Positions 7,857 through 21,827 of a DNA stretch of 33,293 nt are shown here, in pieces; position 1 is the stretch's first letter; the number at the start of each line of letters is the position of its first letter. The DNA comes from an uncultured Clostridia bacterium (GTDB lineage: Bacteria; Bacillota; Clostridia; UBA1381; CAJOGA01). Both the position numbers and the translations under genes were made by a program. The notes beneath the pieces were generated by a model, which saw only the letters and a program-made list of their open reading frames with translations, made no database searches and was not told the DNA's origin. The stretch spans positions 1 through 33,293 of the forward strand of contig CAJOGA010000009.1 of NCBI GenBank assembly GCA_905233855.1. The letters are read 5' to 3'.

Positions 7857-8678
7857 ATGAAAAAGACATTAGCACTTATACTCATGGCAGTAATGGTAAT
7901 AGGTTTGTTAGCAGGATGCGGCTCATCAAAAGACCCTGCGGAATATGCAAAATCTGTTGAAGGTGCAAACGTTGTTGCCGAAGCAGGTTCTGCCGGCGAT
8001 GAATTGGCAAACGAGGACGAATTTTTTGCAAAGGCAAAATTCACACCTGTTGATTCAATGGCAAAAGCATTGATGGAGGTTAAAGCAGGTACGGCTGACA
8101 TAGCTGTGGTTGACTATGTTACATCTATCGGTTCGATAGGCGAAGGCACAGACTATGCTGACCTTGAAGTTGTTGAAGGAAAAGATTTTGACCCTGAGGA
8201 ATACGGTATAGCATTCAGAAAGAACAGCGATGCCGTAAAAGCTGTTGATGCTGCAATTGCAGAGCTTGCAAAAGACGGCACATTGGAAAAAATAGCAAAA
8301 AATTATAAGCTTTCCGATTTGCTCATAAAGGACGGAAAAGCAAACGAAACAGAATTTAAAGAAGGCGACCTTGACTATATCAAAGCTAAAGGCGAAATGG
8401 TTATAGGTATAACACTGTTTGCACCGATGAACTACTATGACGACAATAAAAAGCTTATCGGTTTTGAAACCGAATTTGCAGAAGCTGTGTGTGAAAAACT
8501 TGGCGTTAAAGCAAAATTTGTTGAAATTAACTGGGATTCAAAAGAGATGGAGCTTAATTCAAAGAATATAGACTGTATCTGGAACGGCATGACAATCACA
8601 GAGGAAAGACTTGAAAACATGAGTATTTCCGTTCCTTACATGCAAAACAAACAGGTTATGGTTGTAAAATCAAAATAA
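7857..8678 (+). CDS. Amino-acid-type ABC transporter substrate-binding lipoprotein, apparently circularly permuted
   Basis: 273 aa; signal peptide plus lipobox LLAGC; contains both SBP family-3-like lobes but in reversed order: C-lobe-like VVAEAGSAGDELA...DIAVVDY...EEYGIAFRKNSD...DGTLEKIAKNY, then N-lobe-like GEMVIGITLFAPMNYYDDNKKLIGFETEFAEAVCEKLGVKAKFVE...IDCIWNGMTITEERLENMSISVPYMQNKQVMVVKSK-stop. Confidence 0.9.
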   Translation: MKKTLALILMAVMVIGLLAGCGSSKDPAEYAKSVEGANVVAEAGSAGDELANEDEFFAKAKFTPVDSMAKALMEVKAGTADIAVVDYVTSIGSIGEGTDYADLEVVEGKDFDPEEYGIAFRKNSDAVKAVDAAIAELAKDGTLEKIAKNYKLSDLLIKDGKANETEFKEGDLDYIKAKGEMVIGITLFAPMNYYDDNKKLIGFETEFAEAVCEKLGVKAKFVEINWDSKEMELNSKNIDCIWNGMTITEERLENMSISVPYMQNKQVMVVKSK

Positions 8679-8715: not shown

Positions 8716-9363
8716 ATGAACAGCAACGTTCAAACAATAATATCTTCACTTAACGACGGTTTTATTTCAAACTGTATTATATTTGTGTTGACATTGCTCA
8801 TGGCCTTGCCGCTCGGCTTGATTATTTGTTTCGGTTCCATGTCAAAATTCAAACCGTTATGCTGGGTTTCAAGAACTTTTGTATGGATAATACGCGGCAC
8901 GCCGTTGTTGCTCCAGTTATTCGTGGTAATGTATGCACCGGGGCTGTTATTCGGTATACCCATAAGCTCCCGAATGACAGCGACTCTGATTGCTTTTGTC
9001 ATAAACTATGCGGCCTATTTTTCAGAAATATTCCGCGGCGGTGTCGAGTCGATTTCAAAAGGGCAGTATGAAGCGTGTCAAGTGCTTGGTATGACAAAAA
9101 CCCAGGCGTTTTTCAAGGTAGTATTGTTCCAAGTGGTAAAACGCATTATACCTCCTATAAGCAACGAAGTTATAACCCTCGTAAAAGATACATCGCTTGC
9201 CAGGGTTATAAGCGTTACGGAAATACTTATGTGTGCGGAACGGTTCACAAAGCAAGGTTTGATTTGGCCTCTTTTCTCAACGGGAATTTATTTTCTCGTG
9301 TTTAACGGACTGCTGACAATACTCTTCGGCAGAATTGAGAAAAAATTGGATTACTTTGAGTAG
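8716..9363 (+). CDS. Amino acid ABC transporter permease (HisM/GlnP family)
   Basis: 215 aa, multi-TM, contains SKGQYEACQVLGMTKTQAFFKVVLFQVVKRIIPPISNEVITLVKDTSLARVI, matching the polar amino-acid permease EAA-loop region. Confidence 0.95.
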   Translation: MNSNVQTIISSLNDGFISNCIIFVLTLLMALPLGLIICFGSMSKFKPLCWVSRTFVWIIRGTPLLLQLFVVMYAPGLLFGIPISSRMTATLIAFVINYAAYFSEIFRGGVESISKGQYEACQVLGMTKTQAFFKVVLFQVVKRIIPPISNEVITLVKDTSLARVISVTEILMCAERFTKQGLIWPLFSTGIYFLVFNGLLTILFGRIEKKLDYFE

Positions 9364-9377
9364 AGAGGTGTATCAGA

Positions 9378-10169
9378 TTGAATATATTGGAAGTAAATAA
9401 TATACACAAAAGCTTTGGTAAGACAGAAGTGTTAAAGGGTGTGAGTTTTTCCATGGAGGAGGGCGAGGTTGTATCGCTTATAGGCTCGTCCGGCAGTGGA
9501 AAAACAACTCTCCTGCGATGCATAAACTTTTTGGAAAGAGCCGATAAAGGGCAAATTCTGCTCGACGGTGAATTGTTGTTCGACGCCGACAGCGACGGCA
9601 AGTTAAAATCTGATGAGATACGCAAAAAGCAACTGAATTTCGGTCTTGTATTCCAGGATTTTAACCTGTTTCCGCAATATAATGTCATAGACAACGTCAT
9701 GCTTGCACCAAAACTGCTGGCAAAGCAAAATCCTGCCTTTAAGCAAAACAAAAAGCAGATATACGACGCCATACTCAAAAACGCACAGGATATTCTTGCA
9801 AGAGTGGGGCTCAGTGAAAAGGCTCAAAACTATCCGTGTCAGCTTTCGGGCGGTCAGAAGCAAAGAGTTTCTATCGCAAGGGCACTGGCGTTGAAGCCGC
9901 GTGTGCTATTCTTTGACGAACCAACCTCCGCTTTAGACCCTGAACTCACAGGTGAAATCTTGAAGGTTATCCGTTCGCTTGCGGCACAAAAGGTAACAAT
10001 GGTTATCGTAACGCATGAGATAGACTTTGCCGAAGGCGTTAGCGACAAAATAGTGTTTATGGCAGATGGACGTGTGCTTGAAGAAGGTTCGCCGGAGGAC
10101 GTTATACATAATCCTAAAAACACCCGCACAAAGGCTTTCTTAAGCGGGTTAAAAGACCATACAAATTAA
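9378..10169 (+). CDS. Amino acid ABC transporter ATP-binding protein (GlnQ/HisP type)
   Basis: 263 aa; Walker A GSSGSGKTTLLRC, Q-loop FQDFNLFPQ, signature LSGGQKQRVSIARAL, Walker B VLFFDEPTSALDP; TTG start preceded by AGAGGTG. Confidence 0.96.
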   Translation: MNILEVNNIHKSFGKTEVLKGVSFSMEEGEVVSLIGSSGSGKTTLLRCINFLERADKGQILLDGELLFDADSDGKLKSDEIRKKQLNFGLVFQDFNLFPQYNVIDNVMLAPKLLAKQNPAFKQNKKQIYDAILKNAQDILARVGLSEKAQNYPCQLSGGQKQRVSIARALALKPRVLFFDEPTSALDPELTGEILKVIRSLAAQKVTMVIVTHEIDFAEGVSDKIVFMADGRVLEEGSPEDVIHNPKNTRTKAFLSGLKDHTN

Positions 10170-10250: not shown

Positions 10251-11045
10251 TTAACCTATCTGATGTATTACCTTTCTCGGACATTTCTCTGCACATGCAC
10301 CGCAATTTGTGCATTTTTCGGCATCAATAACCGCAAGGTTATTTTCCAAAGCAATGGCATCGTGTTCACATGTTTTCTTGCATATTCCGCAGCCGATACA
10401 GCCTGTCGCACAATATGTCCGCACAGCCGCACCTTTGTCGTGATTATTGCACAGCACTGCCTTTGCCTCTTTCTTAGGCACCAACGCTATAACCTTTTTT
10501 GGACAGACAGCAACGCACACGCCGCATCCGACGCATTTCTCGCGGTCAACTTCAGCCACGCCGTCTTTTATTGCTATTGCATCAAAGCGGCAATGACTTA
10601 CACATGTGCCGTAACCGGCACAACCCGATATACAATCCTTCTCTCCGCCGCCCAAACGTGTTAACGCTCTGCAATCACGTATGCCGTCATATTCGTATTT
10701 ACGTGATATTTTATCGCACGTGCCGCTGCAAAGCACAACGGCAACCTTTTTAAGCGACTGTGTGCCGGCGTCTACATTCATTATTTTTGCAATTTTATCG
10801 ATTTGTTCCTTCTTTGCCACAGAACATGTGTCTATAGCAGCAGTTCCGTCAGCTATCGCCGCAGCCAACGCACTGCAGCCCGGATATCCGCATCCGCCGC
10901 AGTTGGCTCCGGGCAACAGAGCCGTTATCTCTTCAACTCTTTCATCGGTTTCTACCTTAAAAATCCCCGAAGCAAATGCCAGCAACAGACCAAACAAAAG
11001 TCCCAAACTGCCAAGCACAGCAAAACTGTATAAAATGCTATTCAT
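10251..11045 (-). CDS. rnfB: Electron transport complex subunit RnfB
   Basis: 264 aa; N-terminal CGGCGYPGC cluster motif and multiple CxxCxxCxxxC ferredoxin motifs (CVGCGVCVAVC, CIGCGICKKTC, CTNCGACAEKC). Confidence 0.96.
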   Translation of the reverse strand: MNSILYSFAVLGSLGLLFGLLLAFASGIFKVETDERVEEITALLPGANCGGCGYPGCSALAAAIADGTAAIDTCSVAKKEQIDKIAKIMNVDAGTQSLKKVAVVLCSGTCDKISRKYEYDGIRDCRALTRLGGGEKDCISGCAGYGTCVSHCRFDAIAIKDGVAEVDREKCVGCGVCVAVCPKKVIALVPKKEAKAVLCNNHDKGAAVRTYCATGCIGCGICKKTCEHDAIALENNLAVIDAEKCTNCGACAEKCPRKVIHQIG

Positions 11046-11065
11046 ATTTCAAAAACTCCTTATGC

Positions 11066-11650
11066 CTATGATATTGAAAATCCCGAAAAGCCCATAAACG
11101 CAAGTGCTATAAGTCCCGCTGTTATCAATGCAATAGGAAAGCCTCGGAAAGGAGCGGGAACTTTAGATTCGTCTATAAACTCACGCACGCCGGAGAACAA
11201 CACTATCGCAAGTGTGAAGCCTATTGCCGCAAAAAATCCGAACAGCGTTGAATACAACAGGTTATAGCCTTCCTGTGTAGCCAAAATCGCTACACCAAGC
11301 ACGGCACAGTTTGTTGTTATAAGCGGAAGATATATTCCCAACGCACTGTACAGTGCCGGACTGGTCTTTTGCAACACAAGCTCAACCAACTGCACCAATG
11401 CTGATATTACAAGTATAAAAGCTATCGTTTGCAGATACTCTATATGAAACGGAACCAGCAGATACTGCTGTACCAGATACGTAATAAACGATGCCACCGT
11501 CATTACAAAGGTTACCGCCATGCCCATACCCAAAGCGGTTTTCGTGCTTTTGGAAACACCCAAAAACGGACATATACCCAAAAATCTTACCAACACAAAG
11601 TTATTTATTAAAACAGCCCCAAGTGCTATAACAAGTATGTCTTTAAGCAT
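11066..11650 (-). CDS. rnfA: Electron transport complex subunit RnfA
   Basis: 194 aa integral membrane protein; [21 protein letters not shown] and [13 protein letters not shown] motifs; position between rnfE and rnfB. Confidence 0.96.
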
Positions 11651-12260
11651 TGTCCTTCCCCGCCTTTCTTCTGTTTCTTACCGCCGTAACGGTTGCAATC
11701 GTTATACCCAGCACAAAAAATCCGCCCGGAGGAAGTATCATTACAACCGCCGGATTTTCAGAAAGGAACGGAATCGCAAAACCGAATATTGAGCCGCTGC
11801 CCAATATCTCACGCACACAGCCCAAAATCGTCAACGCACACGTGAATCCAAGCCCCATTCCCAAACCGTCGACAGCAGAACGTCCCACGCTGTTTTTAGA
11901 GGCAAACGCCTCTGCTCTGCCGAGTATTATACAGTTTACCACTATGAGCGGAATAAACAAACCCAAAGCATTGTCCAGCACAGGTATGTACGCCTTAAGA
12001 AGCATCTGCACAAGCGTTACAAATGTTGCTATTATTACAACAAACGACGCTATTCTTATTTTTGAAGGTATAACCTTACGCAAAAGCGATATAAACACGT
12101 TCGACGCAGTAAGCACCACCGTAACGGATAATCCCATACCGATAGCGTTTATCGCCGAGGTTGTAACCGCCAATGTAGGACACATGCCCAAAAGCTGAAC
12201 AAATGTAGGGTTTTCATTTATAAGACCGTTGGTGAAATCTTTTATAACTGTTTTATTCAT
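11643..12260 (-). CDS. rnfE: Electron transport complex subunit RnfE
   Basis: Start placed at [36 protein letters not shown] (ATG at 12260) rather than the longer ORF at 12353, which runs into rnfG; RnfA/E paralog with [14 protein letters not shown]. Confidence 0.94.
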
Positions 12261-12876
12261 TTTCAGGCTCATCTCCTTCTTCTGAAATAGCTTTGACAAT
12301 CTCAAGCGATTTGTTAACTCCCTCTGCCACAGCTCTTGACGACATTGTCGCACCCGTTATCGCCTGAACTTCATTGTCGGCGGACGCAGGCCGTTTCACA
12401 ATGACAACACTGCTTTTGCCCGCAAAACGCGCCTTAAACCAATCGGTTGTTATGTTGCCGCCCAAACCCGGCGTCTCGCTGTGCGAAGGCGGAATGTCTA
12501 TTGCGGAAACGGTAAGGTCTTTGTTTATTCCTATAACAAGCGATATGCCCGGCTTGTATCCGTTAACCACAGTTGTTACGCACCAACCCACAACATTACC
12601 GTCGCCGTCTTTGGCCTCATATACATCGGTGTTCTTGCCGACATCGGAAAAAACCTCCGCATCGGGAACGACGCCATCCTCAAACATCTTTTGAAAATCT
12701 GAAGCCTCCGGCATTGTTACTTTAAGCGATTTTTCAAGAGCGGCTTTGTTGTTTTCGTCTATCTTTGTCTCTGTTATGCTGTTCGCAAAGCCAAGCACAA
12801 CCGCCGCCAACGAACATATAAGAAACAACGTTACGGATAAGGTGATTATTTCTTTTAAGTTAAATTTATCTTTCAT
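12253..12876 (-). CDS. rnfG: Electron transport complex subunit RnfG (covalent FMN-binding)
   Basis: Start placed at MKDKFNLKEI (ATG at 12876); FMN-attachment motif AITGATMSSRAV; single N-terminal TM. Confidence 0.94.
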   Translation of the reverse strand: MKDKFNLKEIITLSVTLFLICSLAAVVLGFANSITETKIDENNKAALEKSLKVTMPEASDFQKMFEDGVVPDAEVFSDVGKNTDVYEAKDGDGNVVGWCVTTVVNGYKPGISLVIGINKDLTVSAIDIPPSHSETPGLGGNITTDWFKARFAGKSSVVIVKRPASADNEVQAITGATMSSRAVAEGVNKSLEIVKAISEEGDEPENE

Positions 12877-12889
12877 AATCTCCGCTCCT

Positions 12890-13870
12890 TTACTGTTTTT
12901 GTTCGGCTTTTTTACGTGCACCGAATTTTTTTGGTATCATATATTTGTCTATAAAAGGAACGCATATGTTCATAAGCAAAACGGCGTAGGTGAAGCCTTC
13001 CGGATAACCGCCAAAACGTCTTATAAGGAAGGTCAGCAACGCACAGCCTGCCGCAAACACATATCTGCCCTTGTCGGTGGACGGGCTTGTGGTATAGTCT
13101 GTTATCATGAACACAGAACCGAACAAAACCGTACCCGTAAGCAGTGAATACAAAGTAAATTCAAGGCTGAACGGTGTCTTGCCGAAAAGATATGTTAAAG
13201 CGGCAAACACAACAAGATATGTAACCGTGGATTTATAGCTTATAACCCCGCGTATGAGCAAATACACAAAACCCACAAGTATCATAATGCCGGACACTTC
13301 ACCGATACATCCGGCTTTAATTCCCATAAATGCCTCCGTTATGCTCGGCATTATACCTTCAGCCGCAGTACCCTTTAAAATGGCAAGCGGAGTTGCGGAT
13401 GTGATAGCGTCGGGGCCTGACATAAACGGAGTTGCGTACGACGCCGTCATAGGTGCCGACCATGCCGCAACCATAAACGCTCTTGCCGCAAGAGCCGGGT
13501 TTACAAAATTACAGCCTATACCGCCAAACAGCTGTTTAACAATGACTATTGCAAACAAATCACCGATTATAACCATAAACAAAGGTATGGTAGGCGGCAA
13601 GGCAAGTGCCAGCAGCACGCCCGTAACGGCGGCACTCAAGTCGCCGGTGGTTATTTTTTGTTTGGTTATTTTCTGATAAGCCCATTCAAAAAACATAGCG
13701 GCCGCCGCAGACGTCAGTACAACCGCCAACGCACGTATACCGAACAGGAACGTGCCGACGATTACGCACGGCATAAGTGCGATAAGAACGTCCGCCATTA
13801 TGCGTGATGTTGTCTCGTTTGTTGCTATGTGAGGAGATGAAGAAACTCTGAATATTGTATTTTCCGACAT
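12890..13870 (-). CDS. rnfD: Electron transport complex subunit RnfD
   Basis: 326 aa membrane protein; FMN-attachment-type motif DAITSATPLAIL, NFVNPALAARAFM, FMITDYTTSPSTDKGR. Confidence 0.95.
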   Translation of the reverse strand: MSENTIFRVSSSPHIATNETTSRIMADVLIALMPCVIVGTFLFGIRALAVVLTSAAAAMFFEWAYQKITKQKITTGDLSAAVTGVLLALALPPTIPLFMVIIGDLFAIVIVKQLFGGIGCNFVNPALAARAFMVAAWSAPMTASYATPFMSGPDAITSATPLAILKGTAAEGIMPSITEAFMGIKAGCIGEVSGIMILVGFVYLLIRGVISYKSTVTYLVVFAALTYLFGKTPFSLEFTLYSLLTGTVLFGSVFMITDYTTSPSTDKGRYVFAAGCALLTFLIRRFGGYPEGFTYAVLLMNICVPFIDKYMIPKKFGARKKAEQKQ

Positions 13871-15204
13871 TATTTTTGACCTCCCCGTCTTTTATTTTCC
13901 GTTATTTGTGCTTTGCCCATTCTTATATACTGCAAAGGATGCTGTCTGCTCGGACAGACATATGAACATAAACCGCATTCCAGGCAGTCCATGATATTGT
14001 AACGTTCACATTCTTCGTAATTTTCCGCCAACACATTCTTCTTCAAAAACAGCGGAGCAAGACGCATAGGACATGCCGACACACATCTTGAACAACGTAT
14101 GCAGTTGCCTGTAGTATCAAAAAGCGACACATCTGTTGTAAGACACAACAGTGCCGACGTTCCTTTTACTACCGGTGTATCAAGATTGTGCTGTGCCATA
14201 CCCATCATAGGCCCGCCCATTATAATCTTTTTAGGCTCTTGTGAAAAGCCGCCGGCATTTTCTATCAACTCTTTAAACGGCACGCCGATAGGCACCGAAA
14301 CATTCTTTGGCGTAGATATGGCGTCGCCCGATATGGTAACTATTCTGCGTATAAGAGGCATACCGGTTTTAAGCTTGCGTGTTATTGCGGCACAGGTGTC
14401 TATATTTACAACTATCGCACCCACGTCTGCCGGCAATCCGCCCGACGGAACGCTGCGTTTTGTTATTGCCTTTATAAGATGCTTCTCCGAGCCTTGCGGA
14501 TACTTTGTCTTAAGCGGAACAATGTTTATCTGTTTATATTCATCTGCGTCTATATGCTTGCGGAGGGTTTCAATGGCATCCTGCTTGTTTGCCTCGATGC
14601 CAATATAACCGCTTTTCAGGCCAAGAATATACATAAGTGTTTTTAAACCGTATATTATATCGTCAGGCGTTTCAAGCATAACTCTGTGATCGGACGTCAG
14701 ATACGGCTCACACTCCGCACCGTTTACTATAACATAATCTATCTTTTTATCCGGCGGAGGAGACAGTTTTACATGGGTTGGAAATCCTGCTCCGCCCATG
14801 CCTACAATTCCGGCATCGCGTATGATTTTAATAAGCTGATCATGGGTATAATTAAAATAGTCATCCATCGGCTGTACGCTTGGGTCAACAGCGTCCTGAT
14901 GGTCGTTCTCAATCACGATCGACTGCATCTTTACGCCTGACGGATGCGGGTAAAGACCTATATCCTTAACAGTTCCCGAAACAGATGCATGGATAGGTGC
15001 GGATATAAATGCATCGCTGTCGGCTATAAGCTGACCTATCTTCACGCTGTCGCCCACACTGACAACCGGCGACAGCATAACCCCCACATGCTGTTGCAGC
15101 GGATAGTATAACAAATCACCTGCAGACATAGTCTGTATAGGGAGCTTATTTGTGTAAGCTTTGCTATCTGTAATGTGCATGCCACCTTTGAAAGTATGCA
15201 TCAT
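13870..15204 (-). CDS. rnfC: Electron transport complex subunit RnfC
   Basis: 444 aa; GMGGAGFPTHVK motif, two 4Fe-4S motifs CIRCSRCVSACP and CLECGLCSYVCP; stop/start adjacency with rnfD. Confidence 0.96.
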   Translation of the reverse strand: MMHTFKGGMHITDSKAYTNKLPIQTMSAGDLLYYPLQQHVGVMLSPVVSVGDSVKIGQLIADSDAFISAPIHASVSGTVKDIGLYPHPSGVKMQSIVIENDHQDAVDPSVQPMDDYFNYTHDQLIKIIRDAGIVGMGGAGFPTHVKLSPPPDKKIDYVIVNGAECEPYLTSDHRVMLETPDDIIYGLKTLMYILGLKSGYIGIEANKQDAIETLRKHIDADEYKQINIVPLKTKYPQGSEKHLIKAITKRSVPSGGLPADVGAIVVNIDTCAAITRKLKTGMPLIRRIVTISGDAISTPKNVSVPIGVPFKELIENAGGFSQEPKKIIMGGPMMGMAQHNLDTPVVKGTSALLCLTTDVSLFDTTGNCIRCSRCVSACPMRLAPLFLKKNVLAENYEECERYNIMDCLECGLCSYVCPSRQHPLQYIRMGKAQITENKRRGGQK

Positions 15205-18707: not shown

Positions 18708-21700
18708 ATGACAGCAGTTCTTTTCAGCTTTTCGGTATACACGTTATTATCTGTTTTGTTGTATGTGTCTATCATCAAAACGGATATAGTCAAAAAGAAA
18801 AAGCTCAACTCTTCAAAACCCACAGTATGGACTTTTTTTGCCGTGTCTCTTATAGCAAAATTGGCAATTTCGGCAATATACAAGGGCTTTGAAGCGGATA
18901 TGACATGCTTTTCGGCATGGTCGGCGTCGGTGTTTTATAACGGCATAGGCAGCTTCTACACCTCCGGCACGTTTGCCGACTATCCTCCGGGATACGTTTA
19001 CGTAATGTATCTGCTCGGCGGAATAAGAAATTTGTTCCATGTTGAGACGTTATCCTATGCAGACGTTGTAATACTTAAAGCTCCGGCTGTCATATGCGAC
19101 ATTGTAACAGGGTATCTGATATATAAATGTGCAGGCAAAAAATTCGGACAAACCGTGTCGCTTGTTATATCATTTTTATACATTTTCAACCCTGTCGCAA
19201 TAATAAATTCCTCAGTTTGGGGACAGGTAGACTCTGTATACACCCTGTTTTTGGTGTTAAGCATTATTTTCATATCCGAAGACAAACTGTTTCCGGCATA
19301 CTTAAGCTATATAATAGGTTTGCTTATAAAACCGCAGATGGCTATATTTGCCCCTGTTATAATATTTGCCACTTTAGACTATGTGCTGCTTCCAAAGTTT
19401 GAGGCAAAAAAGCTTTGGAAGATTATAGGCTGGGGCGTGTCAAGCATAGCTTTGTTTGTTGTATGCTGTCTGCCGTTCGGGCTTATGAACGTCATAAATC
19501 AGTACGTGGAAACGATGTCATCATACAACTACATTTCGGTTAACGCATATAACCTGTACGGCATATTCGGTCTGAACTGGGTTGAAACATCAAAAAAGAT
19601 TCTGTTTTTAACCTATTCACAACTCGGAACAATATTCATACTGCTTATTGTCGCCTCATCGACGTGGATATATATTAAAAACTTCAAAAATCAAAGCAAG
19701 GACAAATATTTTTATATTGCGGCATTTATCATAACCGCAATGTTTATTCTGTCTGTCAGAATGCATGAAAGATACATGTTTCCGGCAGTTGTACTGCTTG
19801 TGTTTGCTTTTATCCACCGGCCGTCGAAAAAAACGGCATTGCTGTTCCTTTTGCTGAGCTTGTGTCAGTTCCTGAATGCGGCACACGTACTCTTTTTCTA
19901 CGATCCGAGTGCCTATGACAGATTTGACACAGCCATAGTGCTTACATCGCTTTTAAGCGTCGCTTCGTTTGCGTACATGCTGTATATCACATACGTTTGC
20001 TATATAAAGGGCATACACGACACTATTGAGCCTGTAAGCATCGGTGCAAAAAAGCAAAAACCGTCAGTCAAAGCGGCAAATAAACCGTCGGACGGCAAAA
20101 ATCTGATAAACAGCTTTTTGGTTGACAAAACAAAAATGACACGCATTGACATTATTATCCTTGCGGCAATAATGCTGGCATATTCCTGTGTTGCGTTGTA
20201 TAACCTTGGCGAAAACGTTGCTCCGCAAACTTATTGGACAGGTGAACAGGGCGATACAATAGTTATGGATTTCGGCGAAAACGTCAACATAAAAAAGGTA
20301 AGAGCATTCCTCGGCACATACCACGACACCGTTCTGAACGTGGAATATTCACAGGACGGCGAAACAACAACCCAATCCGCCGACCCGATAAGCATAAACA
20401 CGGTCTTTTCATGGCAGGATGCCGACACCGACATTACAGGCCGTTACATTTACTTAACAAACGACCACTATAAAATAATGCTCAACGAACTCGTGCTGTA
20501 TGACCAAAACGGCAACACAGTAGTTCCTGTATACACGTCCGCACCCGAGCTGTTTGACGAACAGGATACTTCGCCGGAGCGTATTTCCTACAGAAACGGA
20601 ACATACTTCGACGAAATATACCACGCACGCACTGCGTTTGAACATTTAAACGGAATATATCCGTATGAAATAACTCATCCGCCGCTGGGCAAGCTGTTAA
20701 TCGGCATAGGAATAAAGTTGTTCGGCATGACGCCTTTCGGCTGGCGAATAGTAGGCACATTGTTCGGCATATTTATGCTGCCGTTTATATATCTTTTTGC
20801 AAAACGCATTTTTAAACATACATGGTTAGCAACAGCTGCATGCCTGCTGTTTGCGTTTGACTTCATGCACTTTACTCAAACGCGTATTGCAACAATAGAT
20901 GTATATGTAACATTTTTTGTAATTGCAATGTACTATTACATGTATAAATACTGGACTATGGATCTTGACAAAACTCCGTTTGTCAAAACACTCATACCTC
21001 TCGCCATGTCAGGCTTGTGTATGGGGCTCGGCATTGCAAGCAAATGGCCGGGTGTGTATGCCGGTGCCGGACTTGCGGTGCTGTTGTTCACAAAATGGGG
21101 TGTAACGCTGTATGCCAAATATAATAATGAGCAGGAACGCCGTGATTTTTTACGCTTTATGCTGAAAAGCACACTGATGTGCGTTATATTCTTTGTGGCT
21201 GTACCTGCCGTAATTTACGCATTGTCGTATATACCGTTTATAAAAGTATCGGACAGCGGTGCGTTAAAAACCATCATAGACAATCAAAAATACATGTTTG
21301 AATACCACAGTGCGTTGGAGGCAACGCATCCGTATTCGTCGTGGTGGTATCAATGGCCGACTATTGTCCGTCCTATATTCTACTATTGCGGCAATGACGG
21401 CGATTTAAAAGAAGGCATAAGTGCATTCGGCAACCCTGCTGTATGGTGGATGGGTATTTTGGCATTTGCGTATATGATATATCTTTTATTCAAAAAACGC
21501 GACAAAACGGCTTTGTTTTTAATTATAGCATACCTGGCACAGTATGTGCCGTGGATGCCTGTAAGCTACGGAAGAATAACCTTTATTTATCACTACTTCC
21601 CTTGCACGCCGTTTGTTGTGCTTATGATATGCTACAGCATATACACTATGTATAATGACGCAGACCAAAAATGGCAAAAGCGTATAGTTGCGTTGACCGT

Positions 21701-21827
21701 CGCATACGTTGCCGTTGCGGTGATACTTTTTGCAATGTTCTACCCTGTGCTTTCCGGCAAAGGCGTATCGGGCGAATATGTGGAAGGATTCCTCCGCTGG
21801 TTTGACTCATGGGTATTGGTTATATAA
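18708..21827 (+). CDS. Two-module GT-C glycosyltransferase: N-terminal Gpi18-like mannosyltransferase module, central beta-sandwich-like domain, C-terminal PMT (GT39)-like module
   Basis: 1039 aa; N-module YPPGYVYVMYLLGG, SSVWGQVDSVYTLF, MHERYMFP; central ~120 aa soluble segment (TYWTGEQGDTIVMDFGENVNIKKVRAFLG...YIYLTNDHYKIMLNELVLYD); C-module GTYFDEIYHARTAFEHLNGIYPYEITHPPLGKLLIGIG and FDFMHFTQTRIATIDVYVTFF as in protein mannosyltransferases. Confidence 0.88.
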   Translation: MTAVLFSFSVYTLLSVLLYVSIIKTDIVKKKKLNSSKPTVWTFFAVSLIAKLAISAIYKGFEADMTCFSAWSASVFYNGIGSFYTSGTFADYPPGYVYVMYLLGGIRNLFHVETLSYADVVILKAPAVICDIVTGYLIYKCAGKKFGQTVSLVISFLYIFNPVAIINSSVWGQVDSVYTLFLVLSIIFISEDKLFPAYLSYIIGLLIKPQMAIFAPVIIFATLDYVLLPKFEAKKLWKIIGWGVSSIALFVVCCLPFGLMNVINQYVETMSSYNYISVNAYNLYGIFGLNWVETSKKILFLTYSQLGTIFILLIVASSTWIYIKNFKNQSKDKYFYIAAFIITAMFILSVRMHERYMFPAVVLLVFAFIHRPSKKTALLFLLLSLCQFLNAAHVLFFYDPSAYDRFDTAIVLTSLLSVASFAYMLYITYVCYIKGIHDTIEPVSIGAKKQKPSVKAANKPSDGKNLINSFLVDKTKMTRIDIIILAAIMLAYSCVALYNLGENVAPQTYWTGEQGDTIVMDFGENVNIKKVRAFLGTYHDTVLNVEYSQDGETTTQSADPISINTVFSWQDADTDITGRYIYLTNDHYKIMLNELVLYDQNGNTVVPVYTSAPELFDEQDTSPERISYRNGTYFDEIYHARTAFEHLNGIYPYEITHPPLGKLLIGIGIKLFGMTPFGWRIVGTLFGIFMLPFIYLFAKRIFKHTWLATAACLLFAFDFMHFTQTRIATIDVYVTFFVIAMYYYMYKYWTMDLDKTPFVKTLIPLAMSGLCMGLGIASKWPGVYAGAGLAVLLFTKWGVTLYAKYNNEQERRDFLRFMLKSTLMCVIFFVAVPAVIYALSYIPFIKVSDSGALKTIIDNQKYMFEYHSALEATHPYSSWWYQWPTIVRPIFYYCGNDGDLKEGISAFGNPAVWWMGILAFAYMIYLLFKKRDKTALFLIIAYLAQYVPWMPVSYGRITFIYHYFPCTPFVVLMICYSIYTMYNDADQKWQKRIVALTVAYVAVAVILFAMFYPVLSGKGVSGEYVEGFLRWFDSWVLVI

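Follow-up and report, generated by a model that had tools for sequence, protein, structure and literature searches.

Circularly permuted family-3 binding proteins in ABC importer operons of Clostridia

A permuted lipoprotein gene at the head of an importer operon

The DNA analysed here (the window) is a 33,293-nucleotide stretch from an uncultured, gut-type Clostridia bacterium. Positions 7857-8678 (+) hold one uninterrupted open reading frame encoding a lipoprotein of 273 amino acids. It opens with a lipoprotein signal peptide and lipobox (LAGC, Cys21; 7857..7919, +), recognised in the sequence. Lobe 2 (residues 29–113; 7941..8195, +), now N-terminal, was placed by PDB alignment, by the order of segment HMM matches and by the strands of an AlphaFold2 (AF2) model (E38-42 to E103-107). 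The chain then crosses hinge 2 into the C-terminal part of lobe 1 (residues 114–157, EEYGIAFRK...IAKNYKLSDLL; 8196..8327, +), which is supported by PDB alignment, segment HMM order, AF2 and the alignment of orthologues. The stretch joining the old C- and N-termini follows at about residues 158–170 (IKDGKANETEFKE; 8328..8366, +), as defined by aligning the rotated protein with collinear orthologues, and leads to the N-terminal part of lobe 1 (residues 171–273; 8367..8675, +), now C-terminal and located by a match to Pfam profile positions 9–92, PDB alignment, segment HMM and AF2. This last part stops at hinge 1 (QVMVVKSK), with the breakpoint between positions 130 and 133 of the collinear HMM. 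An Asp with a predicted role in binding the alpha-amino group sits in the AVVDY motif of lobe 2, and an Arg with a predicted role in binding the carboxylate sits in the TITEER motif of the N-terminal lobe-1 part.

The gene heads a permease–ATPase operon, as the initial annotation of the window had stated. Next come an ABC permease of the polar-amino-acid type (8716..9363, +; BPD_transp_1, Pfam 1.7e-16, with HEQRo_perm_3TM above its cut-off) and an ABC ATPase (9378..10169, +; GlnQ/TcyN-like by Pfam and NCBIfam, below equivalog cut-offs), and the three are separate genes without fusion of the substrate-binding protein (SBP) to the permease. Neither cystine nor glutamine could be assigned as the substrate, all NCBIfam equivalog scores being far below cut-off, and a search for a riboswitch or T-box that might identify the ligand found none upstream in the window or in 12 relatives.

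An Rnf-type electron transport cluster (10251-15204, -) lies directly beyond the importer operon and is read from the other strand; its RnfB was identified from NCBIfam, and the remaining genes were assigned by reading alone. Further along, positions 18708-21827 (+) encode a 1,039-aa protein O-mannosyltransferase-like protein (PMT, PMT_4TMC) and then a family-2 glycosyltransferase. Elsewhere in the same genome (L002:1099-3234, -; G000:C26), a 712-aa protein contains part of a family-3 SBP, namely the N and CT segments, and the long N-terminal part of the protein resembles, by eye only, a copper-amine-oxidase-type repeat and a HAD-like phosphatase region.

The window protein matches the Pfam profile SBP_bac_3 (PF00497) with 111 bits (gathering cut-off 26.4) in two stretches, the best of which pairs residues 188–272 with positions 9–92 of the 132 in the profile. 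Its matches in a phmmer search of the PDB likewise consist of two stretches that are out of order: for AncQR (4zv1), residues 179–271 align with chain positions 10–103 and residues 29–148 with positions 110–228. The order of the segments is L2-CT-N, and not the collinear N-L2-CT expected of SBP_bac_3. When the protein is rotated in silico a single SBP_bac_3 stretch is obtained (profile 9–129 of 132), and the rotated form is 66.4% identical over 247 residues to the collinear orthologue L009, in an alignment that skips just four residues at the cut site, and 61–65% identical to four further collinear orthologues. The protein is opened at inter-lobe hinge 1, with QVMVVKSK on one side and DPAEYAKSVEGANVV on the other, while the old C-terminal tail (YKLSDLLI) runs through a short stretch into the old N-terminal lead-in (DLDYIKAKG). 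Almost nothing was lost in the rearrangement, which is a clean circular permutation at hinge 1. Every one of the 37 columns that are invariant among the collinear orthologues is identical in the window protein. Among binding-protein families its sequence matches family-3 (type II) alone, and it is by homology a permuted SBP_bac_3 variant rather than a standard member.

The initial annotation had claimed a circular permutation, and this held: the Pfam and PDB matches are out of order and merge on rotation, and the pair of out-of-order SBP_bac_3 hits that it proposed as a check was found. Its statements that the protein stops where the inter-lobe hinge would begin (the end is hinge 1) and that the anchor is brought to the hinge (it shifts to the hinge side, onto lobe 2) held as well. 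Two details held only in part. The first block, described as the second lobe, comprises lobe 2 together with the C-terminal part of lobe 1 (approximately residues 114–157), and much of the presumed linker is the normal C-terminal tail and the normal N-terminal lead-in.

AF2 modelled the window protein with a pLDDT of 76.7 and a pTM of 0.68, using an alignment of nine permuted sequences only. The strands and helices of the family are present in the model and are cyclically shifted relative to the collinear protein L042. Structures were compared using Foldseek, which depends on sequence order. The nearest family-3 structures to the permuted model (TmArgBP and AncCDT-1) were aligned over one lobe only, its top family-3 matches were mainly lobe by lobe (84–108 columns, best E 5e-8), and full-length matches had TM-scores of about 0.5 or less with rmsd values of 5–9 Å. 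In contrast, the collinear control was aligned over at least 222 columns with E-values down to 4e-20, despite its lower model confidence. We infer, without a permutation-aware superposition, that the window protein adopts the ordinary two-lobed clam-shell. No solved structure of a permuted family-3 protein was found in the PDB, where the matches were either piecewise or spanned the GlnPQ tandem.

Conservation and selection

The same permuted order in the same operon is found in orthologues that are 70–78% (L033–L038) or 61–62% (L039–L040) identical to the window protein, all with the permease and ATPase downstream. These permuted orthologues come from separate genomes and separate hosts (goat, buffalo and roe deer). 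Collinear and permuted orthologues share this operon and are 60–66% identical overall, and the permeases of the two kinds of operon belong to the same family (about 65–75% identical). For permuted pairs with measurable dS, dN/dS is 0.05–0.11, and both lobes are constrained when analysed separately (0.03–0.13), with the caveat that dS is near saturation in several pairs. The permuted genes evolve under purifying selection. Among proteins with the order of the window protein (type A, see below), the ligand-site Arg of lobe 1 is kept in 43/43 and the ligand-site Asp of lobe 2 in 42/43, and a lipobox-like motif is found in 41 of these 43, in 29/29 proteins of a second permuted order (type B) and in 63 of 65 collinear relatives. 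The window genome has no near collinear copy (other matches are 27% identical), and so the permuted gene takes the place of the ordinary one.

It might be argued that the gene is an artefact of assembly or binning in which fragments of ordinary binding-protein genes were misjoined, and the window genome is indeed a draft of 93 contigs. Against this, orthologues from separate genomes and hosts share both the order and one precise breakpoint, type B is present in single-contig genomes (G307, G280 and G426), and the reading frame is uninterrupted with a low dN/dS. We regard an artefact as practically ruled out.

A second possibility is that the protein is a degraded or neo-functionalised remnant in which clam-shell binding has been lost. 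In support of this view, an engineered permutation at the same site carried an affinity cost of about 36-fold in one sensor construct (PMC5087393), and a single inter-lobe crossing is left. However, purifying selection acts on both lobes, the binding-site Arg and Asp are almost always kept in type A proteins, the operon is retained, and the permutation has been fixed independently and repeatedly, such that a remnant appears highly improbable. Both lobes had been described as intact in the initial annotation, and this held. Its further claim that the protein is probably functional is supported because orthologues keep the order, both lobes are constrained, the Arg and Asp are kept, and the operon is the same as that of the collinear orthologues, although function itself is inferred.

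Distribution, cut sites and independent origins

Segment order was called by assigning three segments (N, L2 and CT) by HMM in all fetched loci, which were drawn from the same order, class and, more rarely, phylum. The proteins of E. faecalis and Monoglobus (plasmid-record matches) served as negative controls and were correctly called collinear. A survey of homologues for lobe order had been proposed at the outset; besides the shared order of L033–L040, it revealed what could not have been seen from the window alone, namely that permutation is recurrent, widespread in Clostridia and found with other cut sites. Verified cases of type A (L2-CT-N, cut at hinge 1) come from at least 44 genomes or records (46 titles, two of them duplicates), and those of type B (CT-N-L2, cut ahead of the final lobe-2 strand) from 29 genomes or records. 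A third cut, inside lobe 2, is present at L161:1393-2196 (-) and L166:654-1547 (+), whose two genomes belong to a single family that is not part of the class. On an HMM built from collinear proteins, each type has tightly clustered breakpoints: type A proteins mostly end at about 128–135 and resume at about 128–142, the equivalent values for type B are 198–204 and 199–208, and those for the third type are 159 and 162. A hinge-2 cut was considered for type B and rejected, because the sequences and HMM coordinates place the cut ahead of the final lobe-2 strand.

Some permuted units are part of larger proteins. In L056–L058 and L060 (genomes G007, G040, G049 and G034), two permuted SBP units, the permease and the ATPase form one polypeptide of about 1,150 aa (e.g. 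L057:3715-7131, -; Pfam was run on L056 and L057), and in L059 the whole-importer gene is split into two overlapping frames. In L120–L123, two or three permuted SBP units are apparently fused before the permease, with the ATPase gene next; the sequences of these SBP copies differ strongly, and different ligands are possible.

In the SBP tree, built from 47 orthologues of the operon in the window, type A occupies three positions (5–95% of bootstraps: 3–3) and type B one; in the permease plus ATPase tree the numbers are four and one. A single clade for all type A proteins of the operon family was rejected (AU p 0.019), as was a single clade for types A and B together (p 0.005), whereas a clade uniting the window clade with L039/L040 was not (p 0.23). 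On the basis of the trees and AU tests we can conclude that a minimum of three permutation events occurred in this operon family. Tree counts alone do not separate gain from loss, and exact reversion to the collinear order was taken as unlikely. Permuted and collinear forms are also interleaved in a wider tree of 157 units, although its long branches leave the exact number of events uncertain. The SBPs of L037 and L038 group with the window clade but their permeases and ATPases group with collinear operons, and it is possible that the SBP gene was exchanged between operons.

The alternative to repeated permutation is a single ancient permuted lineage spread by horizontal transfer. This would be consistent with a type A breakpoint that is always the same, with the permitted monophyly of the window clade and L039/L040, and with the tree conflict in L037/L038, which suggests SBP gene exchange. 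Against it are the rejected monophyly of type A and of types A and B, the three and four separate positions of type A in the two trees, the interleaving of permuted and collinear forms in other SBP families, and the different cut sites of types B and D. We consider a single lineage unlikely.

Proposed mechanism and comparison with known systems

The permuted order and its conservation are established, as are purifying selection in both lobes, retention of the operon and repeated independent occurrence. The window protein is very likely (probability about 0.88) a functional, membrane-anchored and cleanly circularly permuted binding protein of a polar-amino-acid ABC importer, with its fold, binding and transport inferred without experiment. 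In this reading, an amino acid would be held between the lobes by the conserved lobe-1 Arg and lobe-2 Asp, and lobe closure would hand the ligand to the permease encoded next door. Topologically, the lobes of type A proteins are joined by a single chain crossing where ordinary proteins have two. All three cut types carry the lipid anchor on lobe 2; its normal site is lobe 1, which holds both termini in ordinary cluster F proteins, as stated for LAO-BP (PMC5087393). The permutation may have begun with an in-frame tandem duplication, after which the first lobe-1 piece (with the signal peptide kept) and the last lobe-2 piece would have been lost. Permuted tandems and a collinear tandem (L164) exist, in keeping with this route, but no duplication intermediate was found in the window's operon family. 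The L164 gene (1093-2640, -) encodes two near-identical collinear family-3 units in one 516-aa protein, conceivably the kind of intermediate from which a permutation could start. A bolder reading, which we offer only as a possibility, is that recurrent same-site permutation in the family-3 proteins of Clostridia was selected for re-tethering through lobe 2, altering closure or delivery to the permease, and that the single-strand hinge of type A was jointly part of the selected change. Effects on closure and docking, raised in the initial annotation, remain a suggestion without data.

Circular permutation is usually rare, old and seen between distant relatives. Here, close collinear and permuted orthologues share the same operon and have separate origins and several cuts, which allows direct tests of the number of hinge strands that a clam-shell requires, of whether the identity of the tethered lobe matters and of the way in which permutation arises. 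The system is a natural experiment on the folding, hinging and membrane attachment of such proteins. Because family scans annotate permuted proteins through partial matches, their order is easily missed.

No natural permuted family-3 protein was found in the PDB or in the literature searched; most subscription papers were outside the scope of that search, and an earlier description is therefore not excluded. The initial annotation had allowed that permuted binding proteins might already be known, and this held for one of another fold type. TpMglB-2 (Tp0684) of Treponema is a natural permuted binding protein for which a 'Type Ic / Cluster Bc' was proposed (PMC4990184). Like the window protein it is a naturally permuted, lipid-anchored ABC binding protein, and it still binds ligand (PMC4990184), but it has a Type I sugar-binding fold, a cut within the N lobe, four crossings, both termini in one lobe and only weak sequence similarity. 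The window protein fails the Type Ic / Cluster Bc criterion, having no Type I (MglB-like) fold match by sequence.

GlnH, HisJ and LAO-BP (family-3, PF00497, cluster F, PBP type II) belong to the same sequence family over both lobes and share the ligand-contacting Arg and Asp, the lipoprotein anchor and the PAAT-type permease/ATPase operon. The window protein differs from them in being permuted, in having one rather than two inter-lobe crossings and in its anchor on lobe 2. The tandem SBD1-SBD2 of GlnPQ (PDB 6h30) and the fused SBP/permease of E. faecalis contain a C-tail/lobe-1 junction between copies which resembles the permuted order, and the GlnPQ tandem is the sole PDB chain matched across this junction of the window protein. 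These are, however, collinear N-L2-CT repeats, and the GlnPQ-type SBP-permease fusion is absent from the window protein and present in some permuted relatives. A counterpart with the same topology is man-made. In the engineered cpLAO-BP of lysine FRET sensors (after Okada 2009), one inter-lobe linker was opened and the old termini were joined, and the protein still binds lysine: its Kd was 107 uM in the sensor, and a value of 3 uM is reported for the natural protein (PMC5087393). It shares its family and topology with type A, including a new terminus on each lobe, and differs in being fused to fluorescent proteins and in having a (GGS)4 linker. The natural permuted proteins may be useful as biosensor scaffolds, because engineers working on LAO-BP chose this same hinge-1 cut.
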